NCBI GenBank assembly: GCA_025454925.1
Contig: JALONM010000022.1
Span: 1 to 49,832 of the forward strand
Direction: 5' to 3'
DNA length: 49,832 nt
From: Cytophagaceae bacterium
GTDB lineage: Bacteria > Bacteroidota > Bacteroidia > Cytophagales > Cytophagaceae
The position numbers and the translations under genes were made by a program. The notes under the pieces were generated by a model. That model was not told where the DNA came from. It did not search any database and saw nothing but the letters and a program-made list of their open reading frames with translations. Positions 7,633-32,294 of the stretch are shown one piece after another (the first letter of the stretch is position 1; each line of letters starts with the position of its first letter).

Positions 7633-7722
7633 TTGATATTTTTTATCACTTTTTTGAAGTGAATCCTCAAACTATTTAATCCGGTCTACGTAAAAATGAA
7701 TATAACCATAGGTGTGTGTGCT

Positions 7723-13700: not shown

Positions 13701-16700
13701 GCTAAACGCAACGTATACCGTTGCAACAAGGGGGATTTGGTCTACGTCAGGCACCGGAGGTTTCTTTAACTCGAATGCCACATTCGATACGGCTACTTAC
13801 GTTCCTAGCCCTGCCGATCGTAATGGCGGATTTGTGACGCTTACCTTTACCACTACACTACACGGTGCTTGTAATCCTGTTTCGGATTCTAAAGTAGTAA
13901 CCATCACTCCGGCACCTACAATCAATGCCGGGGCCGATCAGACTATTTGTTCAACTACCAATACCATTTCTGTCTCTGCAATTAAGAACACCGTGTCATC
14001 AGGTGTTCTATGGACCACCTCCGGTGCAGGTAATTTTGTATCCAACACAAGTACATCAACTACCTATAATGTAGCAGCTATTGATAAATCAGCAGGTGCT
14101 GTTATACTTACAGTGACCACTACTGGCAATGGGTCCTGCAGAGCCGTATCGGATCAGTTGACTGTTTTTGTCGTTCAACAACCAATTGTTAATGCAGGGG
14201 TTGATCAAACCGTTTGTTCGGATGTGATGGTGAGCGGAATTGCTCAAACCCCAACGGTTACTAATTATGCATCGGTATTATGGTCTGTAACTTCCGGTAC
14301 GGGTGTTTTTGGCCCAAGCAATACCACGCTTAATGCTACTTACTTCCCTACTGCGGGCGATACTACTGCTCGTTCTGTAACACTTCAGATTACTGCCATA
14401 GCCAATGCTCCTTGTGCGAACGTTTCAGATTCTAAAGTCATTACCCTAAGACCAGTTCCGGTAATTCATGCAGGAAGTGATATACAAGTTTGTAATGGAA
14501 GTAATGCAGCCTTATCGGGTGCTGTTACCAATGCCTCCGGTGGAGTATGGTCTTTAGTGGCTCCGGCATCCGGAACATTTGCTCCAAGTACTTCTGCCTT
14601 AAACGCATCCTATATCCCTTCTCCAGCAGATACTGTTGCTGGAAGTGTGCGTCTGGTGCTTACTTCTACCGGCATGGGTACTTGTAGCCCAGTTACAGAT
14701 ACAATGCGTATATCCTTTAGAAACAGACCTACCGTGGTGGCAATACCCAACTTCTCAGTTTGTGCAGATGCCGAGAGTTTCATGATTTCAGCTAATACAA
14801 CCAATGCAACAGGCGTTCAATGGACTTCCTCCGGAACAGGTGGTTTCACTTCCAGTACGTCCTTGTCAACGATGTATTTTGTTACTCCACAAGATTCCAT
14901 AAATGGTACAGTTTCTTTTACTGTTACGACCACTGGTACAAATCCTTGTACAGCAGTAAGTGATAATCTTACAGTATCGCTTACACCAGTGCCTACTATT
15001 GACGCAGGACCGGATGTAAATGTTTGTGTTAACGATACTGAAATAAGTTTAAACGCTTCTGTGTTGGTAGCAACTGGTGGATTCTGGACTACCACAGGCA
15101 CTGGGTCGTTTTCCAATTCAAGCATCCTCAATCCTGTTTATACATTCAATCCTGCTGAGAAAGTTGGACCTATTGTATTTAAAGTTACCTCTACGGATAA
15201 TGGCGCTTGCGCCGCTGCATCGGATACAATGACTGTTACATTTACTGTTGCCTCCGTTGTGAATGCTGGCTCGGATAGAACCCTTTGTACGACAGACCTT
15301 CCGGTGATGCTCAATGGTTCGGGATCAGCAGGTCAATGGTCCATTATCACTGGGGATGGGGTAATACAAAATGCTTTATCGGCAAGTACGCAATATGATT
15401 TGGGAACTACCGATAGTGCTATCGTGACCAATCCTATGATCCTTTCTCATGTGCTCACCTTCCGGTATACACCAACAGGTACTTGCGGTGGTATACCAGA
15501 CGATGTTACTATTACCTTAATTCAAGGGCCAAGTATTACCTTGAATCCGATCAGTAATATTTGTACGAATGTTAATGATATTAATATAACAGGATCTGCT
15601 TCCACAGCGGGTACCTGGGCAACAACAGGATCCGGTACATTTGCCAATAATAATATTCCTACCACGTATACCATGTCTGCTGCCGACAAGTCTTCAGGTT
15701 CTGTTATACTCACCTTTACGATACCTGCTGGAGGAGCTTGCAGGGCTTTCAGAGATACACTGGATATTACCATACATCCAACACCAACCATTACAGCAGG
15801 CCCAGATAAAGCGCTTTGTGCAAATGCTCTCGGCAATGTGACCCTGAATGGAGCACATACACTTTCTGGTACACGGCAATGGAATATCTTGAATGGTATG
15901 GGTAGTTTGAGTGCAACGAACATTGATCAACCAAATTACATTCCGGTTGCAGGTGATGTGGGTATTGCTCCGGTTCGTTTGGAATATACTATCGACAATG
16001 GTATATGCTCCGTGATTCGGGACGAAGTATTGATTGCTATCACAGCAGCACCAACTTTAACAATAGGAAATGATACGGCCATTTGTGCCGATATGAATCT
16101 GCCTCTGCAGGCAACATATACTGTTTCTACAGGAGGTATCTGGACTAGTTCAGGCACCGGAATCTTTACACCGGATAGCCAAACCGATAACCCAACGTAT
16201 ATTCCGTCTTCTGCAGATACCGCAGCTCACGCAGCCATTACACTTACTTTTACCACTACCGGAAACGGAATTTGTAACGCTGTATCAGATTCTAAAATTC
16301 TGAATCTTGCCATCAAGCCAATTGTATATGCAGGTATTGATGATTCGATTTGTTCGGCTGAGACGAGTGTTGCTTTGTCTGGCTCCGTGTTCCATGCACC
16401 GGGCGTAACTTGGGCAACTACTGGAACAGGAACTTTCTCCGCATCTAATGTGTTGGCGCCTACCTATTTCCCATCCACCGATGATATTAATAACGGAGGT
16501 GTAATATTTACGATTTCTACCACTGGCGTGGCAGAATGTTTACCTGTTCAAGATTTTAAATTGCTGATGATTGTACCTTCGCCGGTGGCAACCGTTAATG
16601 CAGGATTTGACCAGGTTATTTGTCGTGATGAAGGGTCCACTGGAATGACTGGATTTATTACCATAGCGACTGGTGCAAAATGGGATTGCCAGGGATCTCC

Positions 16701-19491
16701 TTGTTCCGGTACATTTATACCTAACGATGAGGATTTATTTGCTACCTATCTCCCATCTGCGATAGATACAGCTAATGGTTCGGTCATTTTACGATTGACA
16801 ACCACCACCGGCAATGGTATTTGTACACCAGCATTTGATGAAATGCTTCTTACGATTACTGATTTTCCAAGGCCTAATGCGGGCGCAGACTTTGCGGTTT
16901 GTTCAGATACTAGCTTCATTCAATTAAATGGTATCATTAATGCAGAACCATTATTGCAGCCAGCAGCCTACAAATGGGAATCTTCAGGTTCAGGAGTTTT
17001 CACACCTAACGCTTTTGTGGCGAATCCACAATACATTCCATCAGCGGCAGATAAAGCCAATGGATCGGTTGGGTTTACATTGAATTCTCTGAATAACGGT
17101 ACTTGTGATCCTAGGACAGATGCATTGGTAGTTACAATTACTACTCAGCCTACCATCAACGCTGGTTCGGATAGAGCTACCTGCGCCAATAGAGATAGCG
17201 TTACCATGATTGGTTCTATGACTGTGGCTACAACGGCTACCTGGACAAGTTCCGGAACGGGCTCCTTTGTTGCGACCAGTGCCAATGGATTAACCACTAC
17301 TTACAGGCCTTCTGCGGTTGATGATGCAAACGGAGCTGTAGTACTTACATTAACCACTACAGGAGGCTTGGGATTATGTAAATCCATATCGGATGCTTAT
17401 CTACTTACAATTAATCCGGCTCCAATTGTCAATGCAGGAGCAGACCAAACTATATGTGCGGATAATAATTCTGTGAATTTATCTGGTATCATTACGAATG
17501 CAACGGGTGGCTATTGGAGAGCCTTAGGTGTTCTTTCTACCGGTGGCAGTGGTACTTTCAGTCCGAATACTACGTCGTTGAATGCGATCTATGATCCATC
17601 TGATTCAGATACTACTAGACGTTTCGTGAGGTTAGTGTTGGAATCAACCGGAAATGGCTTATGTCGTGCAGAAGACGACACGATCGTACTTACCATAACT
17701 CCCGTTCCGGTGGTGAAGCCTACAGCAGCGGCGGTATGTCGCATTACCAATGGTTCTCAATTGACGAGTTCCGTAGTCAATGCTCTTGGTGGTATTTGGT
17801 CTACCTCTGGAACTGGAACTTTCTCTGCCAATGCTTCTGTCCTTAATGGAATTTATTATCCAAGTCAGGCAGATTCTGCGGCAGGAGGTGTCTTGCTTAC
17901 CTTAACGTCTACTGGAAATGGTTTATGTAATGCAGTGTCTAACACCTATAATCTCGTTATTCAGCCAGTTCCAATTGCCGTGGCCAGTCCTGATCAATAT
18001 GTATGCGCCGGAGTGCCTATTACGCTTACAGCTCAGCAATCATCAGACATTGGTTCCTACCAGTGGGTGCGATTGCCAGGAACCATTGTAGGTGGTAATG
18101 CTTCCTTAACAATAACCCCGGTAAGCAATGAGGTATACACGCTTACTGCTTTCCGACCGGATGGTTGTAATAGTGATAAGGATACAATCGTTGTTTCTAC
18201 CTTTAATATGCCAGCGTCAATTTCCTTGTCAGGAACCAATTGTTTGGCTGATAGCAATGTAATTACTGCTACTCCCGTTCCTGCATGGCCGCCAGTACCT
18301 GGTGTATATACTTGGACACAAAATGGAACTGTTATGGGTGGTCAAAGTGGTGTAGTGATTTTCCCAAATCAAACAGGTCAATATCAGATTACGTTTGCTG
18401 CAGGTGCGTGTGCCACTACTTCTAATTCGTTCACGATAAATCCATCGCCGATATTTGCAGGTATTGATAAAACCAACTGTGCAAATAATGCTACTGTATT
18501 AACAGCGCTTACACCGCTTGCAGGCTCTGGCTCCGGCTTTACTTATGTCTGGGATACGCACCCTACCATTACTAGTGGTTTAAATGGACAATCGGTTACC
18601 GTATTGTATACTGCAGTGTTCGATACAATCTCGTACAACGTTACCGTTGAAAATACTTTCGGTTGTGCCATTGAAGATTCTGTATACTTAATTACAGTGG
18701 AACAACCTGAATTGGCGGTGCAAAACGATACGGCTTGTACAGGGGATACTATTGTATTAAGCGCTGTTCCAACCAATTATAATATAGGTAATATTCCTCC
18801 TATCGAAGAATTCTTGCCTCGATATGTATGGACCAGAGATGGTATTGATTTGAATGTAAATAATGATACACTGGTCGTAACCTCCAGAGGCCGATACATA
18901 GTAAATGTTATAATTGGCGATTGTAACAACAACACCGATACTTCAGACGTCTTGTATAATGATAAACCAGTAATGTCTTTGCCTGATAATGCTAGGTTCT
19001 GCGATGTCACTGATAGTACGGTAACCTTAAATGCTGGAGTGACAGCAGAGCCGAACAAGACCTATTCCTATTTGTGGTCACCAACCGGTGAAACAACCGA
19101 AAGTATTGTGACTACAATTCCTGGATATCATTATGTGAATGTGACCGCAAATTTTGGAACGTTAAGTTGTGATTTTGATGACAGCGTATTTGTGAAAATA
19201 CAATGTTCGCCTCGAGTACATATACCAAACGTGTTTACACCAGGCGCTACAGGAGCCAATGGATTCTTCCAGGTGTTTGGTACACACTTCAAGAATTTTA
19301 AAATGTCTGTGTACAATCGCTGGGGTGAAGTAATCTACAGTACCGAAGATGCAGACTTCCTATGGGATGGTACTTATAAGGACGAGCCTGTTCCATCGGG
19401 TGTATATCCATACATCATCATTTATGAAGGAGACACGGAAGAGAATAAAGGCCCATATCGAATTGAAGGTGAAATACTCCTGATGCGTTAA
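7723..19491 (+). CDS. Giant T9SS type B surface protein with about 31 Ig-like repeats
   Basis: Starting at MKKVYNLICSVVVLMLLVG, a normal signal peptide, the product has 3,922 residues; an in-frame ATG at 7696 would put nine residues ahead of the signal. Residues about 123-190 look like a phage-type FCCH-like insert (HNLAVGDKVTISGVVGNPG). The rest of the first 640 residues forms a unique N-terminal head with several Cys and Trp (FWDDSN, SWWYAN). From about 645 to 3,420 there are about 31 Ig-like repeats of 75-100 residues. PKD-like/Ig-like domains follow, and the last ~95 residues (HIPNVFTPG, MSVYNRWGEVIY, WDGTYKDEPVPSGVY) are the gliding-motility-associated C-terminal domain (CHU_C, T9SS type B signal). 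The protein should cross the outer membrane by T9SS and act as an adhesin or surface fibre. The ligand is unknown. Confidence 0.9.
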   Translation: MKKVYNLICSVVVLMLLVGTNKLLKAEGTEQIQPVEAEPYSLLINRSGGLSIPFASYTPNTHVYQSGTSPADYRLSIRVCNNNERVKLGFFGNEPGTFYRIKNPAGTVVFGPNKVPFLLTVRDVANNAGRFQIRTTANHNLAVGDKVTISGVVGNPGVNGTFFVNTIVNASRFTINVPFAGAYVSGGQVLDANAGRIDTWAQAIAGPASVVGASGYFDTTFVPGVAGDYYIEFNRADRNNFANNQITLRYFDIQVVSAANAMINGRLHSKSWYLANDDDPFKGSFYVYSNDGIVTKINNSQIQPYWFSISCNATGVSNTGNPSVDRMSVNGPQLYPSYEIFLNDPDIACYPTGTFGRLNVNPSVSGCGANRCLNINVDKSGNIIILLDLGGLPNVFDDPMDRQIAYFVTPAQVNTDICVPWDGLNGQGNPIVGGSNINIRVDFLNGITHLPLFDCEDNRNGFIITLERPAGPAPRVFWDDSNVLSGTATDGLTNSVNGCAAPSATIGCHRWRNRGDNACPPCSETINSWWYANIDTRSITYLNHEVDVDANTSLPGTSIANNSFKSCKTNATISLNGSFTSDVAVSGFWSRTGSGTFANANSPITTYTPSPADFAAGSVILWLSSNPTAPPNSCPTERDSLRITFVDATIANAGTDVSVCANNSTAVISGASSSPVSSTILWSGGAGTYVPNNSTLALTYNPTAAEIAAGFVDLTLRVNPTDPTCAFATDVVRINITSSPTANAGADQTTCANNSVATLSGSVGAGSTGAWSSTPACVGCFSNPASLTSTYTPSTANITAGTVTLTLTASKPGCTSVTDNMVLTIKPSPVVNAGPNQLKCRNNNVATLVGSTSNSTSTFWTSSSGCNSCFSSTTSLTPTYTPNATDLANGSVTLTLNGVSAGCLNATSSMTITYTASPTINAGSDRIVCPNNACLTYNVTTTGATGVIWSVGTGTHVPNNTSASGSYCLSAAEVSNGFAILVVNTTGVGNCNQEDDTIFVFLDPMPTVDAGLDNTVCANNPTISLAGNVSSNISSFSWSSLSASGQQGTFSNSSSLTSTYTLSSAEVAAGSVTLRLTGNAPSCNPVSDNVVITVTPSPSVNAGADQSNICFSPGTISLNGFSSTGSGTWSGGAGTFSSTTNLNAIYNSTVAERSGTVTLTLTSSNNGKCNPVTDQVSFNFRTPHTATISAIANSCVNNPNITLSGTTTSTGGQWSGGTGTYSPNANNINTTYIPSAAEIASGSVTFTLSPTGTGGCPPATSNVTVSILPSPTIVINGGTPISVCAGSPTGTLTAVLTGATGVTWSGGAGSFSSTTGTTVTYTATAAEVASGSVTLTGTTTGNGTCNPTSATAVINFQRVPVINAGSDIVLCGNSSVANLSATVTNATGVSWTHTGTGSLSSTTSLTPTYTPSVADKSTIVTFTATSTGNGVCSAVSDQMRLSFTVVPTADAGPDMTVCANDFPTQLNGKGSPSTWSGGAGAYSDPTDMSATYTPTAGEVGTTITLTLTTNPFGACPAVSDQMRLTIVAAPIANAGADQTICGNVFNTTLAGSVTDATGLFWYTDATGSFSNALSGTSTYAPSLADKTNGTVTLTLVTTGMTNDCPADSDQVVITITPTVTVFAGPDQTLCNNGSAIALTSGVVTGASGGIWTQMGGSGTLNNASSLTTASYTPHPADVSVTFTLTTTGNPAGCVALTDQLVITFTAPPVVNAGPDQTLCANAASVSLSGSVTNALGGIWTTTNGTGAFSPNSTNMNTTYVPGAGESGAITIRLTSSGNGVCPGNYFDDMIINLAPSPTVDAGINQVVCANNRLVTLSGIVTNATGGNWTSSGDGVFAAASSLNTTYMPGTGDVSAGSVTLTLTTTGTAPCASRTDVMVVQITPAPTINAGADRSVCANNVTLSLLGTVTVATGGTWSSSGAGVFSGTSSNGLATTYTPSAAEIAAGTATLTITSTDNGLCSPVSDNLMLTITPAPTVNAGPDVTICADSFYVQLNATYTVATRGIWSTSGTGGFFNSNATFDTATYVPSPADRNGGFVTLTFTTTLHGACNPVSDSKVVTITPAPTINAGADQTICSTTNTISVSAIKNTVSSGVLWTTSGAGNFVSNTSTSTTYNVAAIDKSAGAVILTVTTTGNGSCRAVSDQLTVFVVQQPIVNAGVDQTVCSDVMVSGIAQTPTVTNYASVLWSVTSGTGVFGPSNTTLNATYFPTAGDTTARSVTLQITAIANAPCANVSDSKVITLRPVPVIHAGSDIQVCNGSNAALSGAVTNASGGVWSLVAPASGTFAPSTSALNASYIPSPADTVAGSVRLVLTSTGMGTCSPVTDTMRISFRNRPTVVAIPNFSVCADAESFMISANTTNATGVQWTSSGTGGFTSSTSLSTMYFVTPQDSINGTVSFTVTTTGTNPCTAVSDNLTVSLTPVPTIDAGPDVNVCVNDTEISLNASVLVATGGFWTTTGTGSFSNSSILNPVYTFNPAEKVGPIVFKVTSTDNGACAAASDTMTVTFTVASVVNAGSDRTLCTTDLPVMLNGSGSAGQWSIITGDGVIQNALSASTQYDLGTTDSAIVTNPMILSHVLTFRYTPTGTCGGIPDDVTITLIQGPSITLNPISNICTNVNDINITGSASTAGTWATTGSGTFANNNIPTTYTMSAADKSSGSVILTFTIPAGGACRAFRDTLDITIHPTPTITAGPDKALCANALGNVTLNGAHTLSGTRQWNILNGMGSLSATNIDQPNYIPVAGDVGIAPVRLEYTIDNGICSVIRDEVLIAITAAPTLTIGNDTAICADMNLPLQATYTVSTGGIWTSSGTGIFTPDSQTDNPTYIPSSADTAAHAAITLTFTTTGNGICNAVSDSKILNLAIKPIVYAGIDDSICSAETSVALSGSVFHAPGVTWATTGTGTFSASNVLAPTYFPSTDDINNGGVIFTISTTGVAECLPVQDFKLLMIVPSPVATVNAGFDQVICRDEGSTGMTGFITIATGAKWDCQGSPCSGTFIPNDEDLFATYLPSAIDTANGSVILRLTTTTGNGICTPAFDEMLLTITDFPRPNAGADFAVCSDTSFIQLNGIINAEPLLQPAAYKWESSGSGVFTPNAFVANPQYIPSAADKANGSVGFTLNSLNNGTCDPRTDALVVTITTQPTINAGSDRATCANRDSVTMIGSMTVATTATWTSSGTGSFVATSANGLTTTYRPSAVDDANGAVVLTLTTTGGLGLCKSISDAYLLTINPAPIVNAGADQTICADNNSVNLSGIITNATGGYWRALGVLSTGGSGTFSPNTTSLNAIYDPSDSDTTRRFVRLVLESTGNGLCRAEDDTIVLTITPVPVVKPTAAAVCRITNGSQLTSSVVNALGGIWSTSGTGTFSANASVLNGIYYPSQADSAAGGVLLTLTSTGNGLCNAVSNTYNLVIQPVPIAVASPDQYVCAGVPITLTAQQSSDIGSYQWVRLPGTIVGGNASLTITPVSNEVYTLTAFRPDGCNSDKDTIVVSTFNMPASISLSGTNCLADSNVITATPVPAWPPVPGVYTWTQNGTVMGGQSGVVIFPNQTGQYQITFAAGACATTSNSFTINPSPIFAGIDKTNCANNATVLTALTPLAGSGSGFTYVWDTHPTITSGLNGQSVTVLYTAVFDTISYNVTVENTFGCAIEDSVYLITVEQPELAVQNDTACTGDTIVLSAVPTNYNIGNIPPIEEFLPRYVWTRDGIDLNVNNDTLVVTSRGRYIVNVIIGDCNNNTDTSDVLYNDKPVMSLPDNARFCDVTDSTVTLNAGVTAEPNKTYSYLWSPTGETTESIVTTIPGYHYVNVTANFGTLSCDFDDSVFVKIQCSPRVHIPNVFTPGATGANGFFQVFGTHFKNFKMSVYNRWGEVIYSTEDADFLWDGTYKDEPVPSGVYPYIIIYEGDTEENKGPYRIEGEILLMR
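9660..17985 (+). repeat. Array of about 31 protein repeats (mean about 89 residues)
   Basis: The repeats start with a NAGxDxTVCANN-like segment. The middle has a W-T-S-S-G-T-G-x-F pattern and T-Y-x-P-S-x-A-D, and they end with VTLTLTTTGNGxC-xxVSD. Nearly all carry one Cys near the start and one near the end, suggesting one disulfide per domain. At DNA level the copies are well diverged, so the array is old. I counted the repeats by eye from the Cys-containing start motif. Confidence 0.8.
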
Positions 19492-23043: not shown

Positions 23044-26000
23044 TTAAAGTTTGGTCAGGAGGAAGGTGTGCCACTCATCGTTAAACAATACTTTCAGAAT
23101 GTAGAATCCTGGTGAAAGGTCCTTGCCAAGCTCCCAAGAGGAAAGAGAGGAGTGACCATTCCAGCGTACTTTTCCGTTCAGTTCCAGTATTTCGGCATAC
23201 AACGGATCTTGCGACGATTGTTTAAGCTGACAAGACTCCAGGAAGGGATTCGGCGAAACGAATATATCCTTGTTTTCTTTGCTTCTGTAGACCACTTGCA
23301 CGGCAGTCCAATGAGCTGTTCCATCTTTGTCAACTTGTTTTATTCGGTAATAGCCTTTTCCATTCGGTGGGTTTTGATCAATTGCTGAATAAATAGTTTG
23401 GGAATTACTGTTGCCTTGGGCAGGGATAACATCTGGTAATTCATAGAATAACATGCCATCGGTCGAGCGTTCAACCACAAAACGTTCACTGTTCACCTCT
23501 TGCGTAGTTGCCCAATCAAGTCGCACCCAGGCTCCTTGATTGGTAGCCTGGAAATACGCGTAGTCTACAGGAAGAACGCAATTGATCGTACCCGTAACAG
23601 GCACTCGATCACAGGGGCCTGGTTTATTTGAAAATTCCCAATTGTAAAAGTACAGGTACCAATTATTGGTTTGAGTAGTCCAGGACGGAGAGCCACGCAC
23701 AATGCTGAGATACCCAGGTACTGTATATGGGAAATTCGAATTTTCATTATTCATCATCAGCGAACCGGTAGTGCCAACGGCATCCATAAAATATTCCTGT
23801 CCGCTGATATTGGCAGCGAGGTTGAATCCAAGGGCCAACCTTTGTTTTCCGGCAGAGGTAATGTTAAATGTTTTTGAATGTAACACACCCGTTCCTGCTG
23901 GATCCAGCACCCGGATTGTAACAGTCTGCGGACCATCGGTGTATACCGTTATGAAATTCAATTGTAGCGGGCTTGCTACAGTAAATTTTAGTTTGTAGGA
24001 ATAGTCGCTGTTGAACCATACATCTCCGAACGTTGTATCTTTGGGCCCAACCCTATTGGAATAAAAAGATGCATCTTGCACGTAAAAGGTGGTAGTGCTG
24101 CTGAGGTTAGGACTGTAGCTGCTTCCGCTGGCTATGGAAGCGCCTCCAGTAGGTGTGTTGTACCATTGGAAGGATCCTGATCCGGTTACGGAAAGATTAA
24201 GTACTCCAGCTCCACAACGTTCGGCATCTACTGGTACAGCAGCCACAGAACTTACCACTACTTGATCGGAAACAGGCGTACAAGTGCCTCCGGAAACATT
24301 TACCTGATAGGTTCCTGGTGTGTTAACCGGTATTTTACTACCCACCGCTCCTGGTATGGTTATGGAATTTCTTTGCCAAACAAATGTAACGCCTGAGGCT
24401 GAAAGTTGTGTATTCAAGGTGTCGATCATTGGAGAACACAAACTGACATCAGGACCTAAATTGACACTTAAGGCTGCGTTCACCCGCATAGCATCACTCT
24501 TGAAGCACCCTAATGAATCTACTAAAACGGAATAATTTCCTGTGGTTGTAATGGATAGAGTAGGAGTGGTGGCCAGTAATTTTACACCATCCTTAAACCA
24601 GGTAAATGTGCGATTGGGATGAGCTGTTAAGCCGGAAGAAACGATTAGTGGGCTTCCTGTAATACACAAAACAGCATCGGGGCCCAGGTTGGCAGGTAAG
24701 CATGGGCAGGGCACGTAAGAAGTTCCTGGAGATCCTAATTTGCATCCGGCAAACCACGAGGAACTTTGGTTGGGATTCAGACTGCAATCCTGTAATTCCA
24801 GCGTTGCACCGTATCCATCGGCAATAAGCGGCCAAGGTGCAACGTCGTCGTAGGTTATCGTATACACGGCTTCTCCTAACGTGTTATATAGCTCAATGCG
24901 CTCTCCTCCATTGCTTAAGTTGAATCCCAAGGGACCAATGAAATTGCTAACGGTTGGATGTACGGTTTGGAATTTCAATACATTGGATACTAACACCAGA
25001 TATTGTCCTGGTTGGAGGATCGTTCCATTCGGAATCGTATATTCATTGTAGATATTGCTGTCTTTTACTTTCCAACCGGATAAGTTTAAGGGTGCTGTGC
25101 CGGTGTTTTGTAATTCCAGCCAATCGCCGCTGTCGACAGAGGCACTGGAAGAATCGGCATTATAATTTATTTCTGAAACACAAAGCTTGGGAATATTTGT
25201 AGTAGTGCCGAAGTTGGCGGTAATTGTGCCATTGGCGGGAATGTTCATGGTAAGTACTGTATTGGTGGTAGAAGGCAAGCTTAATCCGGAACTCCAGTTT
25301 ACAAATTGATAGCCATCGTTCGGAATTACTTCTATTGTTACGGGTACCCCATTGAAGTAGACGCCTGTCCAGGGTAAAGAGCAAGGTGTGATGGTGTTTA
25401 TGCGAATCCTGCCAGCACCGGCTGGATTTACTTGCAGAGTTACATTCACCTGTCCGGATAATGCAAATTGTGCATTGATTTGTGTTCGAACCTGGGCCGG
25501 TCTTCCATCCATAAACGTTTCTATTCCGCTCACGGCTGTATTCCAGCCGGCAACATTAGCAGAGTTGTGTGGCCAGCGTGTAAAATGTCTGGTCATCTCT
25601 GTGTTTAGTTCGTTTTTGAGGGAGTTTAATACCGACTTGTAATTGTTAGCACTGTAGATCGTATTTATAAGATCTGCATATCGGGAAATAAAATAGTTTC
25701 TAAATGTAGTATTCGTTAATAATTTCTGGAAAAATGGAGAGTGTATGCTACGAGTATCTGTTAGCACTCGATTGAGTTCGTTGGTGGTAGCCGAAGAAAA
25801 ATTAAACAAGCCCAATCCAAAGTCTGTATCATGCAGAATAAATCTCCACTTTCCACCAACAGCTCTGGGTTGCCAGAATTTAATATTGTTGTGAGGCCAG
25901 TCCCAGTTGGTGTGATAGGTTTCGCTTATCAAATAGTCAACATAGTTTTTGATGTCAAGCATATTGTTTTGCAAATTGTCGTAATTCGCAGCAACTGTCA

Positions 26001-28023
26001 TGTTGTTATTGTTTACAAAGTCAACCATCTGAAGGAATTCAGTTGTAGAACCTTTTTTTGGTGTTCCATTAAATTCCCCGTAGTCAATTTCATCGTCGGT
26101 AAGGCCAAAGTTGTTTTCAAAATAGGTGTCGTCTACGCGTTCACGAAGATGATGTACTCCCCAGTATTGTCCATTGATGTAGACTAATACGGGGATGTAA
26201 GCTTCGAAATCACAGTGGTTGTCCACACAGGGCAACATGCTGTTGAGCGTACGTTGGTTAGTAGCGTCTCTCAGATGCGTGTAGTTGAAATCATTGCCTC
26301 CATTTCGTAAAGTAAAACTTTCGAATTGATCCAGTGTGCTTTTTTTGGGTTCGTTGTAAAAGCTGTACTCGAAAGTTTTTTTTCCATATTTATCTCCTGC
26401 CCTGATTTGCATACTTTTCATCTGCAAGGTGCGGGACCATCCTCCCAATATTTTTACTCCTGCATCCTGTTCAAACTGGAAGTTTTTCAATTTGTCGAAA
26501 TATTCGATATGGATTTCTCTTTCCCAGTCTTGCCAAAAATTTCTGCAACGGTAGGGCATATCCGGGCAAGCCGCAACGGTAGCGGCAGTTCCATCGACAT
26601 AAATCCCTGTATTGTTATCAAAGAAATTGGCGGGAGCTGTACTGATGGATACGACCCCCATGGTGGTGTTGTCGTTGATGAAATAGGAATTGGTTTCAAA
26701 ACCGCCTGGAAGAAAATTCGCCAGGAATGCTGCAGCCCTAACTACTCTCGTTGAAGGAATAGAAAGTGGTGCGGTATATACGGCGGAGCTTGCATTCGGT
26801 TTGGTTCCGTCTATAGTATACCGAATCGTAACTCCAGGTGTAATGGAAGACAAGCTTAATGTTTGTGTGCCCGTGTAATACCCGGCAGGGAGGGAAAAAA
26901 CAACCGGATTATTCAAGTATCCAAGGGATGGGGTGGAAGTGCCGTTGCTGGCATTGGGCGTAGCAGGTTGAAGGAATCTCCAGGTAAGACTGCCATTCGG
27001 AAAACGTCCATAGGTGTCGTCTACTTGCAAGCGAGGCACAGCAATACTACTCACCAGTGCGGGTGTAGGAGCGTTGTTGTATAATAAAATGGTTTCACCA
27101 CTTTCTTTGATGGAAAAGTTGGTGTGAAGATTCAGTCCAATGGAAGGCGCCACAAACCATCCTGGAACGGTTTGGTAGTTGATAGCGGCACTGCCAATGC
27201 CTGCGGTGAGGAATGGACGACAGGTCATATCGCTGGAGGCAGCGTCTCTATTATGCACCGAGATGGCCAGGACATTCGGACCGTCCACCAGAATGTTTTT
27301 ATATACAGAGGAGGGAATGATAAACTCATCCGGAGTTCCACCACTGTACATCACCGCCTCACGGTCAGAATCGGCAAACGTGTTGTACGAGGGAGCGCCT
27401 GAAACATTTCCGTTGGCAATCTCAATTCCATTGAGGTAAGCTACAAATCCATCGTCGTAGTCTACATGGAGTATGAGATATTGAATGTCGGCTGCAGAAA
27501 CTAAGTTGAATGTGTGACGTAGGTAAACGACAGAGGCTGGATTGGGTGTTACAATTGTAGCATCGTCGGCATCGCCATATCCTATTCCACCAGGACCCTG
27601 TGCCCAAGCGCCATCAGCAAAGCCCGTCGTGTTCCAATTGGTAGGAGTGCTGGCATTGGGGATCGTAAATCGCCATATATTATTCTCTTTAACAAGAGAT
27701 TCCCAATGGTCAACAAATTCTATTTTGTTTTTTCCTGAAGCATGTATCGTCAGGTATCCATTCGCAGGAATACTAATGTTCGGGAATGTCCACTTAGTCG
27801 GTACAGCGGGATCATCAGAAAGACGATAGCCTTGAAGGTTTACTGGACTTCCGATTGGATTATATAATTCAATCCAATCGTTGAAATCTCCGTCGTTGTC
27901 GGGGAAAACTGAAAAATTGTTGGAGCTCACTTCGTTGATCATTATCTGCTGTGCTTGCACAACAGAAAACGATAGTACACCGATGCTAAGCAACAAGAAG
28001 CAGAGTTTGAGGGCAGATACCAT
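23044..28023 (-). CDS. Large secreted CotH-kinase protein with lamin-tail domains and T9SS signal
   Basis: A 1,659-residue protein. Order of parts: signal peptide (1-24, ending VVQA); lamin-tail domain (about 25-105, INEVSSNNF, DWIELYNP); a beta-sandwich (about 110-275, VDYDDGFVAYLNG); a chitobiase C-terminal-like domain (about 375-450, IRYTIDGTKP); CotH kinase (about 495-860); an InlB B-repeat-like domain (about 862-940, GYQFVNWS); a second lamin-tail domain (about 943-1103); Ig-like segments; and a T9SS type A signal (last ~75, VSPNPFLES). The kinase core has NWDWPHNN (706-713) and HDTDFGLG (731-738), which fit the catalytic Asp and metal-binding Asp of CotH kinases. CotH proteins phosphorylate proteins on Ser. 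The protein should be exported to the cell surface. It lies downstream of the VTC-DUF4956 genes across a 350-base gap. Confidence 0.92.
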   Translation of the reverse strand: MVSALKLCFLLLSIGVLSFSVVQAQQIMINEVSSNNFSVFPDNDGDFNDWIELYNPIGSPVNLQGYRLSDDPAVPTKWTFPNISIPANGYLTIHASGKNKIEFVDHWESLVKENNIWRFTIPNASTPTNWNTTGFADGAWAQGPGGIGYGDADDATIVTPNPASVVYLRHTFNLVSAADIQYLILHVDYDDGFVAYLNGIEIANGNVSGAPSYNTFADSDREAVMYSGGTPDEFIIPSSVYKNILVDGPNVLAISVHNRDAASSDMTCRPFLTAGIGSAAINYQTVPGWFVAPSIGLNLHTNFSIKESGETILLYNNAPTPALVSSIAVPRLQVDDTYGRFPNGSLTWRFLQPATPNASNGTSTPSLGYLNNPVVFSLPAGYYTGTQTLSLSSITPGVTIRYTIDGTKPNASSAVYTAPLSIPSTRVVRAAAFLANFLPGGFETNSYFINDNTTMGVVSISTAPANFFDNNTGIYVDGTAATVAACPDMPYRCRNFWQDWEREIHIEYFDKLKNFQFEQDAGVKILGGWSRTLQMKSMQIRAGDKYGKKTFEYSFYNEPKKSTLDQFESFTLRNGGNDFNYTHLRDATNQRTLNSMLPCVDNHCDFEAYIPVLVYINGQYWGVHHLRERVDDTYFENNFGLTDDEIDYGEFNGTPKKGSTTEFLQMVDFVNNNNMTVAANYDNLQNNMLDIKNYVDYLISETYHTNWDWPHNNIKFWQPRAVGGKWRFILHDTDFGLGLFNFSSATTNELNRVLTDTRSIHSPFFQKLLTNTTFRNYFISRYADLINTIYSANNYKSVLNSLKNELNTEMTRHFTRWPHNSANVAGWNTAVSGIETFMDGRPAQVRTQINAQFALSGQVNVTLQVNPAGAGRIRINTITPCSLPWTGVYFNGVPVTIEVIPNDGYQFVNWSSGLSLPSTTNTVLTMNIPANGTITANFGTTTNIPKLCVSEINYNADSSSASVDSGDWLELQNTGTAPLNLSGWKVKDSNIYNEYTIPNGTILQPGQYLVLVSNVLKFQTVHPTVSNFIGPLGFNLSNGGERIELYNTLGEAVYTITYDDVAPWPLIADGYGATLELQDCSLNPNQSSSWFAGCKLGSPGTSYVPCPCLPANLGPDAVLCITGSPLIVSSGLTAHPNRTFTWFKDGVKLLATTPTLSITTTGNYSVLVDSLGCFKSDAMRVNAALSVNLGPDVSLCSPMIDTLNTQLSASGVTFVWQRNSITIPGAVGSKIPVNTPGTYQVNVSGGTCTPVSDQVVVSSVAAVPVDAERCGAGVLNLSVTGSGSFQWYNTPTGGASIASGSSYSPNLSSTTTFYVQDASFYSNRVGPKDTTFGDVWFNSDYSYKLKFTVASPLQLNFITVYTDGPQTVTIRVLDPAGTGVLHSKTFNITSAGKQRLALGFNLAANISGQEYFMDAVGTTGSLMMNNENSNFPYTVPGYLSIVRGSPSWTTQTNNWYLYFYNWEFSNKPGPCDRVPVTGTINCVLPVDYAYFQATNQGAWVRLDWATTQEVNSERFVVERSTDGMLFYELPDVIPAQGNSNSQTIYSAIDQNPPNGKGYYRIKQVDKDGTAHWTAVQVVYRSKENKDIFVSPNPFLESCQLKQSSQDPLYAEILELNGKVRWNGHSSLSSWELGKDLSPGFYILKVLFNDEWHTFLLTKL

Positions 28024-28372
28024 GATGCTTTAGTTTATCGTTAGAGTTTTGGGGAAATGCTTTTTTCTTATAAGTTGTTGTTAGAATGCATAACACATAG
28101 ATCCGTAGAAGTAGGAAGAACTAGCACTTTGGTAAAGAAGTGATTTAGTATATGGGATTTGTTAGATAGTACTGCTGAAAAATCCCATAATAAATGGAAG
28201 GAGGGTGGCTGCCAATGCAGAATTTGCAGGTAACTGAAAGGGCCTTTATGATAGAACCGAAAGCGCACAGGGAATGGTGCGAGGTATCGGTAGTTTTTCA
28301 GTAGGGACAATAAGAAAGCTATATGCCTTTGCATGATGTTTGGGGGAATACTACGTGATTACTTTTTTTTCT
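28024..28372. other. Intergenic gap between DUF2490 and CotH genes, with hairpin
   Basis: No gene is visible. A 10-bp perfect inverted repeat, TATGGGATTT (28151-28160) with AAATCCCATA (28180-28189), has a 19-base loop. It may be a leader structure of CotH or a weak operon-internal terminator. No TAnnTTTG box was found on the minus strand here, so CotH may depend partly on read-through. Confidence 0.4.
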
Positions 28373-29041
28373 CTATATCGTCAGATTAAAGGTGATACCA
28401 TAAATGTGATCTACAGAAAGACTCATCAGAAGTGCTTTCTGGAAAGTATAGTAAAATCCAATGGATTTTTTTTTGTCTATTTCGTAATCAATCCCTCCTG
28501 TTACACGGATTCTTGTGAGTCCCCGTTGGGCTGCATTGATTCTGTAGAAAAATTCGTTAGCAATACTGGGCACGGTTCTTTTGTTCCACTTGGGTTGTAT
28601 TTTCCATCGAAACCGTATCGTTTTCCTCACTTGATTCCAGTCTGCTTCGCGTCTGTAAGCGCCTATTTGTTCTTGATATCTGAGCCTCGCAATAAAAGTA
28701 ACCTTGGGTAGTATTTTCTTTTTAAAATTGAGATCGATAAATCCTCTGCTGAAGCCCATCATTTGATGGCGCACATTCCTGTTCCAACCTTTTCTAAAAT
28801 TCACTGAAGCACTGAATGGACCTTTGAATTTATATTGAGCTGAAAAGTCAGTAAAGAAACTATTAAAGTCGCCGAAGTTTTGATTGATGCGAATATTGGG
28901 AGAGGCAGCCAAGGAGAATTTTTTGGTGATTTTTTTCTCTAAGGTGAACTCTGCCCATAACGAAGCATCTTGTGTATTTTGAGCATTAGCAGTACACACA
29001 CAAGATAGAATCAAAAAAAAGGGTATAAGTTTTTTAAGCAT
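28373..29041 (-). CDS. DUF2490 family outer-membrane-type protein
   Basis: A 222-residue protein with a clean signal peptide (MLKKLIPFFLILSCVCTANAQ). An in-frame ATG at 29083 would put 14 residues ahead of it, so 29041 is the better start. The mature part alternates short amphipathic strands (SLWAEFTLEKKI, YKFKGPFSASVNFRKGWNRN, FIARLRYQEQ, YYTFQKALL) and ends in hydrophobic residues with an aromatic-rich last strand, GITFNLTI. This is the pattern of DUF2490, predicted small beta-barrels of the Bacteroidota outer membrane. Its start overlaps the end of the DUF4956 gene by 8 bases, implying coupled expression. Exact function is unknown; in this context it might be the outer-membrane partner of the polyphosphate genes. 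Confidence 0.85.
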   Translation of the reverse strand: MLKKLIPFFLILSCVCTANAQNTQDASLWAEFTLEKKITKKFSLAASPNIRINQNFGDFNSFFTDFSAQYKFKGPFSASVNFRKGWNRNVRHQMMGFSRGFIDLNFKKKILPKVTFIARLRYQEQIGAYRREADWNQVRKTIRFRWKIQPKWNKRTVPSIANEFFYRINAAQRGLTRIRVTGGIDYEIDKKKSIGFYYTFQKALLMSLSVDHIYGITFNLTI

Positions 29042-29774
29042 AGTAGTGTATCTCAAGTTGGGCTGCATCCCGAAGGAAATCAATCTTCACGATACTTACT
29101 TTGTAAATATTTAGTCCTGTTCTGTTTTTCAGGTCAGCAATTAACTCCGCATTGCGTTCAGGTTTAATCATTTCAATGTTTTCATACAATACATTTTTTG
29201 AGAATTGTCTTTTGAATAGAATGTTCCCGTCAAGTAAAAATGTGAATGCCACCACGATAAAGTAGATTACACCCAACACGAGATAATCCAGTTGTATAGC
29301 GCCAATAAGGCCGATGGCGATTACAATAAACAAGTAGGTCATATCTTTTGGCGAAATTCCCTCGGTGCGATAGCGTAGCATCGAGAATACGGCAAAGAGT
29401 CCAAAGGCTGCTCCCATCGACATTTTGATGTGATTCAAGGCAAATGTTAGTACAAAGATGACTATGTTGAAAATTACAAAAGTGAAGAGTATTTCTCTTT
29501 TTTGATAATTGGGGTAATAGATAAAGCCAATGATCATAAGGATGGCTAAGATATTCATCCCAAAACTGATAAAGAAATTGGAGTTGAGTTGGATCGTTTC
29601 TTCTTTGTCTTTGTCTTTGTCTTTGTTTTTATTTTTCTTTTTCTTTTTGTCGTCGTCTTCGTCATCAGCCAATTGAGCTATTTCGCTCCCGAAATCAGCA
29701 TGGGATGATTGAGAATAGGATTGAAAACTCAATGCAAAAAAGAGGAGTATGAAAATTTTATGAAGAATGTTCAT
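29034..29774 (-). CDS. DUF4956 polytopic membrane protein
   Basis: A 246-residue protein. Residues 1-22 look like a signal peptide or first membrane segment. Residues 36-59 are a striking Asp/Glu-Lys tract (ADDEDDDKKKKK, then KDKDKD). About four or five membrane helices lie between about 66 and 180. The family signature AFGLFAVFSMLRYRTEGISP sits in the middle. A soluble C-terminal domain of about 60 residues (ENIEMIKPERNAELIADLKN) follows. DUF4956 genes are often found next to VTC-type polyphosphate polymerase and CotH genes, as here (from memory of the families). The start overlaps the VTC stop by 17 bases. I infer a membrane anchor or channel for the VTC protein. Confidence 0.9.
   Translation of the reverse strand: MNILHKIFILLFFALSFQSYSQSSHADFGSEIAQLADDEDDDKKKKKNKNKDKDKDKEETIQLNSNFFISFGMNILAILMIIGFIYYPNYQKREILFTFVIFNIVIFVLTFALNHIKMSMGAAFGLFAVFSMLRYRTEGISPKDMTYLFIVIAIGLIGAIQLDYLVLGVIYFIVVAFTFLLDGNILFKRQFSKNVLYENIEMIKPERNAELIADLKNRTGLNIYKVSIVKIDFLRDAAQLEIHYYA
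29598..29669 (-). repeat. Acidic/lysine tract with hexanucleotide repeat
   Basis: This segment of the DUF4956 gene encodes residues 36-59. It contains an imperfect 6-base repeat (minus strand GACAAA, 29604-29627) giving Lys-Asp pairs, preceded by KKKKK and DDEDDD. Changes in copy number keep the frame, so length variation rather than on/off switching is expected. Confidence 0.7.
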
Positions 29775-30534
29775 GCTTTAATTTATTTAGGGACAGTAGA
29801 ACAGGTTTAAAGTTGTTGTGTTTTATTTCTGGATGAAGGCTGGAAATGCCTAAGCAATATTTACTTAAAGAGCCCTGACGAATGCCAATTTGCTTAGCTG
29901 CTTTAGTGAAAGGCGAAGGCATAAATTTGGCTTGCTTTAATTCGGCAATTACTACGAATCCATAGTCGGCTTGCTGATTGTTCCAGTCGAAGCGAAGTTG
30001 TAAGTCTATGGTAAGACGTTCTTTAAAGTCTTTGCTTACCAGTGTCATGCGTGAATAGTATACCCAAAGTTTAGCCAAAAGTTCACGTGCTTCAAATGGA
30101 GTTTTTTTCTGAATAAATGCTTGTGTTTCTGCAGTTCCATCCAAAGAGTCCAAAATATTGGCAGTAGTAATCCGCTCTTTTTTTGTTCGACCTTTGTTGT
30201 TTTTGAATTTAACCTCCAGGAAAGTGATGTTGGATTCCAGGTATTTTCTTGATCGGATTTTGTAGCGATTCAGTCCTTTGCTTTGGTGTCGCTGAAATAG
30301 ACGAAAATCATCGGTGTCGTAATATAAAGTGGCGTATTTGCTGAGACGCGCGCCGTTTACCTCTAATAGGTAATAATCGGGTTGCAACAATTCCAGCAAG
30401 GGAACCAGTTGTCGTGTATGAAATAAAAACTTGGTATCTGTGCGATCCATGAGTTTTACCGAATCCATTTGATTCAGGTCTATAGGCGAAAAGGTCCTTA
30501 AGACATCGTCAAGAGTTCCGGCTGCGCTCATCAT
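29758..30534 (-). CDS. VTC-domain polyphosphate polymerase
   Basis: A 258-residue soluble protein made of one VTC domain, the triphosphate-tunnel fold of the yeast vacuolar transporter chaperone catalytic subunit, which makes polyphosphate from ATP. Charged residues expected to line the tunnel are visible: K35 (DRTDTKF), YYDTDDF at 71-77, R90/K92/R94 (NRYKIRSRKY), E107 and K109 (FLEVKFKNNKGR), R162, R173 and D177 (ERLTIDLQLRF), E198 and K200 (VIAELKQ), K225 (SKYCLGI). No SPX or membrane part is fused; the next gene encodes a membrane protein instead. It shares one base with the upstream stop codon (TGATG) and overlaps the next gene by 17 bases. Two ATGs in a row open the frame. Confidence 0.92.
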   Translation of the reverse strand: MMSAAGTLDDVLRTFSPIDLNQMDSVKLMDRTDTKFLFHTRQLVPLLELLQPDYYLLEVNGARLSKYATLYYDTDDFRLFQRHQSKGLNRYKIRSRKYLESNITFLEVKFKNNKGRTKKERITTANILDSLDGTAETQAFIQKKTPFEARELLAKLWVYYSRMTLVSKDFKERLTIDLQLRFDWNNQQADYGFVVIAELKQAKFMPSPFTKAAKQIGIRQGSLSKYCLGISSLHPEIKHNNFKPVLLSLNKLKHEHSS

Positions 30535-31094
30535 CAGAATGTATATTGATAGGATTTCTTGGAAATCAGTTTACCTTTCCCATCAAAGGTTTGCTTCTCT
30601 TTTTTTAAACCCTTGTTGTCGTAGGTATACACCGATTTTTCCAGGACCTTGCCTGCTGCATCGTAGATGATTTCACTGCTTTTTTCGCCAAGGGCATTGT
30701 AGGAGGTAATTTCTTTTTTTACCAATGAGCCTTTTCCATCAAAGGTATGCTCTTCTGTTTTATTATTGGAGGAGTCATACTTGCGTGTTATTTTCTTTTT
30801 CAGGGATCCGTCAGAATCAAATACATTTTGTTCTACGATGTCATTATTTTTATTGTATTTGTACGTTTTTCTCTTTTCCAGTTTGCCATTTGTATATTCC
30901 TCTTCTTCCAGCAAATTTCCGGAGGCATCGAATTTATGAATCGTTTTTTTTGTTTCCTCTTCTCCATCCTCGCTTTCAACACTGGAGGTCGTGATTGATT
31001 TGATTTTATATTTTTTTACATCCTTTTCACTTTGCGCTGACACATTCCAGTGCAAGGAAATTCCGAATAACAGCAGGTATAACAATGGTTTCAT
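30534..31094 (-). CDS. Secreted YD/Rhs-like short-repeat protein
   Basis: A 186-residue protein with a signal peptide (MKPLLYLLLFGISLHWNVSA). The mature part is very rich in Lys and Glu. From about residue 50 it has five or six repeats of about 23 residues following KYDxxGNxxExxxYDxxGKLxxK (for example KFDASGNLLEEE, TFDGKGSLVKKE, TFDGKGKLISKK). This resembles YD/Rhs or MORN-type beta repeats, which bind carbohydrate or serve as scaffolds. It starts 3 bases after the lipoprotein stop and shares one base with the VTC start, so it belongs to the same operon. Function unknown; the basic repeats could bind an anionic polymer such as polyphosphate, which is speculation. Confidence 0.75.
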   Translation of the reverse strand: MKPLLYLLLFGISLHWNVSAQSEKDVKKYKIKSITTSSVESEDGEEETKKTIHKFDASGNLLEEEEYTNGKLEKRKTYKYNKNNDIVEQNVFDSDGSLKKKITRKYDSSNNKTEEHTFDGKGSLVKKEITSYNALGEKSSEIIYDAAGKVLEKSVYTYDNKGLKKEKQTFDGKGKLISKKSYQYTF

Positions 31095-31097
31095 GAC

Positions 31098-32123
31098 CTA
31101 GTCGTAAATAGTAATTTTAGGAACCGATACATTACTGTTATTAACAATAACGCTTCTCTTTTTTGCTATGGGGAATACAGACACCAACAGTTCATCGTCC
31201 GAATAGGCGTATACCTCGTAGGTACCATTCGGTACCCAGAATTGATAATTACCATTGTAAGTGGTGCGCGTACGGTCTCCAAATATGGTATCCGTTCCAT
31301 ACACAATATACACATCAATGTCTCCTGCGGGCTCCGCAGTAGTAATCGGAATACCAAAATTATCAATTTCAATAATTTCAATATTGCCTGTAATTGCGAA
31401 GAGTTTATTGTCCTCAAGTTTCACTACCAGATCGGGCATGGTTAGTCCAGATCCAGCGATGGTGGTGTCTTTAGAGATGATTACATCGTCGCCGTTTACA
31501 TCGCCTTGGAAGTTTTTATACTTGGTATATATTTTATAATTGCCACTTGGTAATGCGTTAAATTCGTATTCCCCATTGGTGTTGGTTGATACTTTTTCTA
31601 TGGCAGATGGATTTGCGAGGTTAACAGCAAAAACGTCGTGATCGGCAACATAGGCTTCGCTATTGATGGTCCTTCGGTCTAGGCCAATGTATTGGGCTTT
31701 AATTTTTCCTCGAATCCGGAAGAGCTTGCGTTCCTCTTCCACGATGCGAAGATCTTCCAGCTCTTTATCACCGGAAATCGTTACTTCCACAGAAACCGCA
31801 ACCTCGCCAGACGATGAAATACCAGCGGTGTCTTTGGAGTAGGTGAAGATGGTGTACGTTCCTTTGCGTAGAAAATTGAATTCGAACGATCCGTCGGCGC
31901 TGGTTGAAATTTTATCGCCATAACTATCGGCATCTCCATAAATGATAAATACGTCATGATCAGCCAGGTACCCTTCACCTGTTTTAAACGCCATATTTTC
32001 GTCGTAAAACAACGCGTATACTTTACCTTTGATGGAAAATTTGCCACCACGGCCTTCCTCTTTTTTACAACCTAAGACAAGGAGTAATAGAGGAATAAGG
32101 GAAAAATATAGACTTTTTCTCAC
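31098..32123 (-). CDS. Lipoprotein with three beta-sandwich repeats
   Basis: From the GTG at 32123 the product has 341 residues and begins as a lipoprotein signal (RKSLYFSLIPLLLLVLGC, Cys19 as lipid site). A TTG codon at 32150 in the same frame lies inside the promoter -7 box and cannot be the start. The mature part has three copies of a domain of about 100 residues. Each opens with FxIxGK(V/I), has a central DHDVFIIYG / DHDVFAVNL / DIDVYIVYG strand, and ends with FEFNFLRKGTYTIFTY-like strands. The last part resembles carboxypeptidase-regulatory-like (transthyretin-fold) domains. It is the first gene of the operon that leads to the VTC and DUF4956 genes, and should be anchored to the periplasmic face of a membrane or the surface. 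Confidence 0.8.
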   Translation of the reverse strand: MRKSLYFSLIPLLLLVLGCKKEEGRGGKFSIKGKVYALFYDENMAFKTGEGYLADHDVFIIYGDADSYGDKISTSADGSFEFNFLRKGTYTIFTYSKDTAGISSSGEVAVSVEVTISGDKELEDLRIVEEERKLFRIRGKIKAQYIGLDRRTINSEAYVADHDVFAVNLANPSAIEKVSTNTNGEYEFNALPSGNYKIYTKYKNFQGDVNGDDVIISKDTTIAGSGLTMPDLVVKLEDNKLFAITGNIEIIEIDNFGIPITTAEPAGDIDVYIVYGTDTIFGDRTRTTYNGNYQFWVPNGTYEVYAYSDDELLVSVFPIAKKRSVIVNNSNVSVPKITIYD

Positions 32124-32147
32124 AATAAGTTGTAGTATTTGGATATA

Positions 32148-32177
32148 CAAAATTAAAAAATTAACACAAACTTTAAA
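32148..32177 (-). promoter_or_regulatory. Promoter of the lipoprotein-VTC-DUF4956-DUF2490 operon
   Basis: On the minus strand TTTA (32177-32174), an 18-base spacer and TAATTTTG (32155-32148) give an exact -7 box and a 3-of-4 -33 element. The predicted start is near 32141, leaving a leader of about 18 bases to the GTG start codon. Confidence 0.65.
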
Positions 32178-32270: not shown

Positions 32271-32294
32271 AGCCACCTCCTTTTAGAGGTGGCT
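32271..32294 (-). terminator. Terminator of the GH3 gene
   Basis: AGCCACCTC / GAGGTGGCT form a 9-bp stem with a 6-base loop, followed on the minus strand by TTTTTTTATT. It lies 40 bases past the GH3 stop and separates that gene from the downstream operon. Confidence 0.85.

Follow-up and report, generated by a model that had tools for sequence, protein, structure and literature searches.

Which process would require a VTC-domain protein and a membrane protein of the family DUF4956 to be encoded together with an outer-membrane barrel and further exported proteins? This question is raised by a cluster of five genes on the minus strand (32150..28373) of a 49,832-nucleotide stretch of DNA from a Cytophagaceae bacterium (GenBank assembly GCA_025454925.1, contig JALONM010000022.1), the whole of which is here called the window. 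The genes encode, in this order, a lipoprotein-like protein, a Lys-rich repeat protein, the VTC protein, DUF4956 and DUF2490; a single 3-base gap (31095-31097) is followed by overlaps of 1, 17 and 8 bases, and the initial annotation of the window had given this layout correctly to the base. Together they make up a genuine unit that is widely conserved. We infer its product, direction, contacts and purpose, and consider the chance that it is a dedicated polyphosphate synthesis-and-export cassette to be evenly balanced.

Conservation of the VTC-DUF4956 pair

Among 247 genomes sampled from the phylum, VTC was found in 43 and DUF4956 in 68 (the same sample has CotH in 96 and DUF2490 in 84). DUF4956 is present in all 43 VTC genomes, a subset relation whose chance would be 1e-30 for independent genomes; these genomes are related, and kinship is uncorrected. 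The two genes are also direct neighbours. We fetched 46 of 48 VTC places, excluding the window itself and a 54-residue fragment (G022:C160), and VTC lies immediately 5' of DUF4956 on the same strand in 44 of them; at the two exceptions (L084, L092) both genes are within the fetched stretch and do not adjoin in that order. Fourteen DUF4956 places without an adjoining VTC gene were fetched as well, 13 from the 25 genomes that have DUF4956 and no VTC, and one (L119) being the second DUF4956 of a VTC genome. In 14 named control genomes, VTC and DUF4956 match the same three, namely Bacteroides ihuae, Corynebacterium glutamicum and Methanosarcina acetivorans.

A set of named loci, the best 80 of 576 confirmed matches to an alignment of window-type DUF4956 and hence biased to this type, gave a similar arrangement. 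VTC adjoins DUF4956 in 68 of the 73 loci with at least 900 bases upstream, and DUF2490 adjoins it in 65 of the 76 with at least 900 bases downstream. Where at least 2.2 kb upstream are available, a relative of the lipoprotein-like protein is found 5' of VTC in 32 of 66 loci and a relative of the repeat protein in 36 of 66; with at least 4.5 kb upstream (n=58), the corresponding counts are 27 and 31, all five genes occur in 18 loci, and all five together with CotH in 15. Runella, Emticicia, Lacihabitans, Flectobacillus, Larkinella and Paludibacter appear among the titles of these loci, as do numerous metagenome bins; for labels like Bifidobacterium or Sphingomonadales and Alphaproteobacteria bins, mis-binning is a possible cause. 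Outside the phylum, VTC genes are carried on six plasmid records from Bacillota and Actinomycetota (Nonomuraea, Paenibacillus, Acetoanaerobium, Planococcus, Pseudobutyrivibrio and Enterococcus), with DUF4956 directly next in all six and CotH within the fetched flank in four. The annotated gene order is CotH, polymerase, DUF4956 in Pseudobutyrivibrio and polymerase, DUF4956, CotH in Planococcus. VTC and DUF4956 thus form one unit that is conserved across phyla, which supports their pairing in the initial annotation; the latter had set beforehand that the lack of a conserved neighbourhood beyond this genome would speak against its proposal, and such a neighbourhood was found.

Some places deserve mention in their own right. 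At the edge of contig RFVQ01000126.1 (L157, 1-894) the C-terminal part of VTC and DUF4956 share one stop-free frame, either a natural fusion or a sequencing error, and a contig labelled Candidatus Methanoperedens (L171) carries window-type VTC and DUF4956, by transfer to an archaeon or by contamination. Two VTC-less places (L110, L111) encode a DUF4956 of 185 amino acids (aa) beside an opposite-strand protein of 625 aa which by eye resembles PEP/pyruvate-binding domains. An apparent VTC fusion of 774 aa (L080) was rejected as a gene-calling artefact.

The VTC protein and its membrane partner

The VTC protein (258 aa; 29758..30534, minus strand) was assigned to the triphosphate tunnel proteins by Pfam and by alignment of its relatives to yeast Vtc4. 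Its sole Pfam domain above cut-off is PF09359 (residues 31-234, E 1.5e-28, 100.4 bits against a cut-off of 23). The single sequence gave no useful match against the PDB, and a profile of window-type relatives alone found only Vtc2 (E 0.005). A wider profile was needed for Vtc4, which the profile of 36 VTC proteins (the window's included) matches with an E-value of 6.4e-21. Nine Vtc4 residues were looked up, with window residues assigned through this alignment and profile positions matched to window residues by motifs; we take K200, K281, R361, R373 and K455 to be active-site positions. Eight of the nine are kept: K200, R264, R266 and K281 correspond to K35, R94, R96 and K109 of the window protein, R361, R373, E426 and K458 to R162, R173, E198 and K225, and each is identical in all 36 VTC proteins. 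R264, R266 and E426 (PMC9911596) and K458 (PMC4641920) are named as active-site residues of Vtc4 in the excerpts from which these papers, like all others below, are cited. Tunnel phosphatases have an acidic-patch glutamate two residues after the metal-binding glutamate (PMC4641920); in all 36 proteins this position is a lysine (K200 of the window protein, two residues after E198), as in Vtc4. R31 of the window protein is basic as in Vtc4 and is arginine in 34 of the 36, but position 33 is acidic in all of them.

Judged by these residues, VTC is likelier a polyphosphate polymerase than a phosphatase, and because its active site is Vtc4-like, it would make polyphosphate from ATP. The initial annotation had called it a VTC-family polyphosphate polymerase, which holds at the level of the active site, the activity itself being predicted from sequence. 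Since 41 of the 43 VTC genomes, among them the own genome, encode PPK1 too, VTC is an extra enzyme. The eukaryotic VTC complex (Vtc1/Vtc3/Vtc4) resembles the cassette in its tunnel domain, which is of Vtc4 type, has active-site residues in common with VTC here and works with a membrane part; basic residues have been proposed to guide the chain there (PMC9911596). In contrast to that complex, neither an SPX domain (no match in Pfam) nor a membrane segment is joined to VTC here, and the proposed membrane partner is the MgtC-like DUF4956.

The DUF4956 protein (29034..29774, minus strand) matches PF16316 with an E-value of 1e-48 (165.7 bits against a cut-off of 30.6). Its predicted structure (pLDDT 83, pTM 0.69) comprises a signal-peptide-like helix, a Lys/Asp-rich linker, five membrane-type helices and a C-terminal alpha/beta domain of beta-alpha-beta-beta order, so the model agrees with the polytopic membrane protein that had been postulated. 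By profile comparison, DUF4956 is a distant relative of MgtC: against 14 MgtC proteins, the profile of all 59 DUF4956 proteins matched at 97.0% over 197 columns and that of the 32 proteins of other than window type at 97.5% over 193 columns, while four control sets of membrane proteins stayed below 1% (three of them sets of only 4 or 6 sequences). Pfam gave MgtC rows for all six other DUF4956 proteins scanned, with E-values from 1.2e-6 to 0.074, all below the 31.4-bit cut-off (best 29.3), and no MgtC match for the window's protein; a search for MgtC weakly matched two DUF4956 genes. A match to DUF4956 was rejected for eleven longer MgtC relatives that had been trimmed to 200 aa (1 to 3%). DUF4956 thus shares with the MgtC/SapB family (PF02308) a colinear profile match over 193 columns and, in the model, five membrane-type helices followed by a soluble domain, but differs from it in remaining under the Pfam cut-off, in an RxRT motif of its own and in being paired with VTC.

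The first arginine of this motif, R134, is identical in all 76 proteins compared and the second, R136, is arginine in 72. Both are located at the end of helix 3 in the model, an end that would face the cytoplasm provided that the C-terminal domain does. In the window's protein and in 8 of 8 picked long-tailed relatives, helix 1 is directly preceded by a Lys-rich stretch, which is absent from two short-tailed ones. The Lys/Asp-rich linker occupies 29595-29666 of the window; we presume that it resembles the acidic Ser/Lys-rich stretches that carry polyphosphate in yeast. For the C-terminal domain, chains with ACT domains (regulatory parts of acetohydroxyacid synthase and aspartate kinase) often appear among the best Foldseek matches, all weak (E 0.2 to 0.6), and VIA-align gives other small folds for residues 185-246 (Z about 5). 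The top VIA row for the membrane part, an ALMT anion channel, was distrusted (Z 6.6, root mean square deviation (rmsd) 5.1).

Envelope genes and CotH beside the pair

DUF2490 (28373..29041, minus strand; PF10677, E 1.3e-18) is read from the ATG at 29041, where its signal peptide begins, and an earlier TTG appears in the list of open reading frames (ORFs). The model (pLDDT 92) is an outer-membrane beta-barrel with 11 strands by DSSP, the KdgM-like fold having 12. VIA-align ranks KdgM best (Z 16.6, rmsd 2.2), followed by NanC (Z 16.2) and an oligogalacturonate porin (15.8). What it shares with these porins of acidic oligosaccharides is the shape of the barrel (Z 16.2 to 16.6) and a basic character, whereas identity is 8 to 13% and Pfam, read up to E 1, gives no KdgM match; PMC4827864 counts DUF2490 among the putative porin families of unknown function. 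Without its first 22 residues the window's protein has a net charge of +22. By strand parity, without coordinates, its polar side would carry 16 Lys/Arg and 8 Asp/Glu in 72 residues and its lipid side 7 Lys/Arg and 2 Asp/Glu in 73. The mean net charge is +11.1 for 53 operon copies versus +4.7 for 19 copies elsewhere (Mann-Whitney 2e-5, with kinship uncorrected and the 19 copies hand-picked, mostly strong Pfam hits). Model, porin match and charge support the DUF2490 barrel of the initial annotation and make it a basic, porin-like one. At another place of the own genome (L201, G000:C122, 1025-6167), a second CotH gene is separated by about 2.2 kb from a basic DUF2490 gene (+17) on the other strand.

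In other lineages, the position of DUF2490 is occupied by a HlyD-type adaptor. Counting genes on the same strand within 2.6 kb of DUF4956, 27 of the 46 VTC places have HlyD only, 14 have DUF2490 only, none has both and 5 have neither. Together with eight at VTC-less places, these adaptors amount to 35 proteins of 326 to 407 aa, except one of 233 aa (L061); apart from this short one, their lengths and scores match those of complete adaptors. An OEP protein above the Pfam cut-off occurs at L084 (order CotH, DUF4956, HlyD, OEP, VTC) and at the VTC-less L113 (HlyD, DUF4956, OEP), and two other OEP-like proteins scanned were below cut-off or unmatched. As HlyD adaptors work with inner-membrane exporters, they are the best indirect evidence that DUF4956 may export something. 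The window operon differs from a tripartite HlyD-OEP exporter in that neither an adaptor nor an OEP gene was found among its ORFs or by Pfam.

The remaining two genes of the cluster are also on the minus strand. The lipoprotein-like protein (31098..32150; 350 aa, TTG start) has a lipobox-like LVLGC and three transthyretin-like repeats (CarboxypepD_reg type, three stretches, E 4.6e-12 in Pfam). The exported Lys-rich protein (30534..31094; 186 aa) has RHS/MORN-like repeats with weak Pfam matches (RHS_repeat 22.1 bits against a cut-off of 22, MORN_2 under its cut-off), and its relatives average 17% Lys (39 proteins, the window's included). Terminator-like hairpins are predicted on the minus strand 5' of the cluster (32294..32271) and, weakly, between DUF2490 and CotH (28281..28264), with no such site between these two flanking ones. 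As evidence the sites are weak (2 seen versus 4.3 expected in shuffles), and a single promoter for all five genes would be plausible.

The next gene on the same strand (23044..28023), 349 bases 3' of the cluster and outside the span first annotated, encodes a kinase-like CotH-domain protein of 1659 aa (PF08757, E 4.4e-35, 122.2 bits against 23.8) with lamin-tail (LTD) domains and a type A sorting domain of the type IX secretion system (T9SS; 27.2 bits against 23), and it perhaps has a transcript of its own. Against solved structures, no chain matched its CotH domain. Secreted CotH kinase-like proteins are frequent neighbours of VTC-DUF4956 in three phyla, with CotH within 9 kb at 36 of 58 named loci (at least 4.5 kb upstream) and 17 of 46 fetched places. 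In 57 CotH domains of these loci (the window's included), five columns are conserved (R in 54, E in 54, D in 54, N in 53 and D in 56), which we take to be kinase-like. At two VTC-less places (L107, 5429-9442; L108) DUF4956 is followed by a CotH-like protein, a hint given a profile match of only 44%, and at L107 a protein that by eye resembles metallophosphoesterases comes next. Elsewhere in the window, 7696-19491 encodes a protein of 3931 aa with many repeats, Ig-like by eye.

Function of the cassette and competing explanations

The polyphosphate synthesis-and-export cassette that we propose would work as follows. VTC in the cytoplasm would polymerise phosphate from ATP, and DUF4956 would dock VTC and take the growing chain through the inner membrane, a role that may parallel that of the membrane parts of Vtc1/Vtc3/Vtc4 in yeast; the likely point of entry for the chain would be the conserved RxRT motif, where helix 3 presumably ends on the cytoplasmic side. 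In Gram-negative relatives, the chain would then be handed on either by a HlyD-type adaptor or by the basic DUF2490 barrel set, two envelope modules whose alternation, together with charge, suggests this handover. Here the barrel would act with the transthyretin-like lipoprotein and the Lys-rich repeat protein, and the polymer might serve the envelope, either at the outer membrane or outside it, possibly partnered by the secreted CotH kinase. Gene unit, conservation, active-site residues, modelled folds, charge and alternation all fit such an export unit. The idea of the initial annotation, in which DUF4956 supplies the membrane part and polyphosphate is pushed into the periplasm, is supported in part.

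Parts of this neighbourhood are already in print. CotH, a polyphosphate polymerase, DUF4956 and DUF4832 are contiguous with Gram-positive Pel operons (PMC7112168). In Streptococcus intermedius, loss of SIR_1594 (CotH) or of SIR_1592 reduced aggregation and changed Pel, with less Pel in one mutant and more in the other (PMC12345266). SIR_1592 is described there as an MgtC membrane domain plus an ACT domain, the name DUF4956 not being used in that paper, and we infer that it is a DUF4956 relative. The authors report that they failed to find the three-gene arrangement outside Pel loci (PMC12345266). The streptococcal genes and the cassette have the same three families in contiguity, but many VTC genomes are without Pel, the own genome has no PelG match, and the cassette belongs to a Gram-negative envelope with DUF2490, a lipoprotein and a Lys-rich repeat protein. 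In the disease-linked locus NELoc-2 of Clostridium perfringens (CP4_0460-0465), a gene for a membrane protein of 222 to 226 aa comes after each of the two VTC genes, with CotH next; these membrane proteins are annotated as tubulin/FtsZ GTPase (PMC2879425). Finally, an iron table of Bacteroides thetaiotaomicron lists DUF4956 and DUF2490 as BT3498-99 (PMC10434189). A literature search to which subscription papers and preprints were out of reach found nothing on polyphosphate export in Bacteroidota. The novelty claimed by the initial annotation thus stands for the Gram-negative, Pel-free form of the VTC-DUF4956-CotH neighbourhood with envelope parts of its own and falls for the neighbourhood itself, since both the CotH-polymerase-DUF4956 and the DUF4956-DUF2490 associations are known from the excerpts just cited. 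To the initial annotation, the present analysis adds the HlyD-type adaptor at the position of DUF2490 in other lineages and the MgtC relation of DUF4956.

Several observations weigh against the export cassette or its parts. With respect to the enzyme, K455 of Vtc4 is lost, and position 33, T198 in Vtc4, is acidic in all 36 VTC proteins (E or D; D in the window). DUF4956 occurs without VTC in 25 of 68 genomes; the 27 window-type DUF4956 proteins alone match MgtC at 37%, over 46 columns, and a Foldseek search of the DUF4956 model returned no rows with E up to 0.001. For DUF2490, autotransporter barrels are within one Z unit of KdgM, Foldseek ranks VDAC/Tom40 first by E-value (TM-scores near 0.2) and KdgM 17th, and the other DUF2490 of the own genome is strongly basic too. 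The alternation of modules is incomplete in that five of the 46 VTC places have neither and that L126 (9253-12600), alone among the 80 named loci, has VTC, DUF4956, DUF2490 and then HlyD on the same strand within 2.6 kb; it may also count few exchanges, because the split tracks two DUF4956 clades. Pfam names HlyD_3 in only 19 and HlyD_D23 in only 16 of the 35 adaptors (E 0.01 or better). In S. intermedius, it was removal of the MgtC/ACT protein SIR_1592 that raised Pel, and the available excerpt tells of no aggregation loss in the polymerase mutant, which like the other three accessory mutants still aggregated (PMC12345266).

Four other explanations have to be considered. VTC-made polyphosphate might stay in the cytoplasm for phosphate and ATP balance, with the MgtC-like DUF4956 regulating polyphosphate or ATP synthase and the envelope genes forming a stress-responsive set rather than a conduit. 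The MgtC relation fits this view, since Salmonella MgtC, according to PMC12345266, acts on ATP synthase and on the uptake of phosphate, but the view leaves unexplained both a second synthase beside PPK1 and the company which the pair keeps with HlyD, DUF2490 and secreted CotH in several phyla, and we regard it as unlikely, though not far-fetched. The genes might instead be accessory to a surface polysaccharide, tuning or modifying it as with streptococcal Pel. Apart from the Pel-linked triads (PMC7112168) and the altered aggregation and Pel of the SIR_1592 and SIR_1594 mutants (PMC12345266), the Pseudobutyrivibrio triad sits among glycosyltransferase, acyltransferase and pyruvyltransferase genes, and a three-member glycosyltransferase-like cluster was seen by eye among the neighbours. 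However, PelG is above cut-off in none of the 43 VTC genomes (two weak rows lie below), no glycan gene was found in the window operon by ORFs and Pfam, and the 22 neighbour clusters inspected by eye include no larger glycan cluster, so that an accessory role of this kind appears quite unlikely to us.

Alternatively, VTC might be a triphosphatase or another tunnel enzyme and make no polyphosphate. Tunnel enzymes span many activities (PMC4641920), and the acidic position 33 and the lost K455 point the same way; the eight invariant active-site residues and the lysine at the acidic-patch position argue for a polymerase and render this improbable. A further possibility is that the secreted CotH kinases take their phosphate from exported polyphosphate, or from exported ATP. 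It would agree with the frequency of CotH beside the pair in three phyla, with the kinase-like look of its five conserved columns and with the T9SS sorting domain of the window's CotH, but CotH uses ATP and is within 9 kb at only part of the places (17/46 and 36/58), and its probability is low. The source of ATP for CotH phosphorylation of the coat has been called unanswered in an excerpt of PMC7821199. Bolder still, polyphosphate made by VTC, exported by DUF4956 and carried across the outer membrane by the adaptor or the basic porin might be the phosphate donor of secreted CotH kinases in places devoid of ATP, and MgtC-type proteins might by extension belong to a family that first of all passes phosphate polymers or nucleotides; we regard this as a long shot.

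The evenly balanced proposal of an export cassette would nevertheless have consequences beyond this bacterium. Bacterial polyphosphate is usually credited to intracellular PPK enzymes. A second, yeast-like polymerase which is nearly always accompanied by one membrane protein, and often by adaptor or porin genes, is a candidate route of polyphosphate to bacterial surfaces. MgtC-type proteins would gain a testable transport role, and secreted CotH kinases a possible answer to the question of where they might obtain phosphate. In print, these genes appear bound to Pel polysaccharide, an impression that is corrected here, as the VTC-DUF4956 pair is common without Pel.

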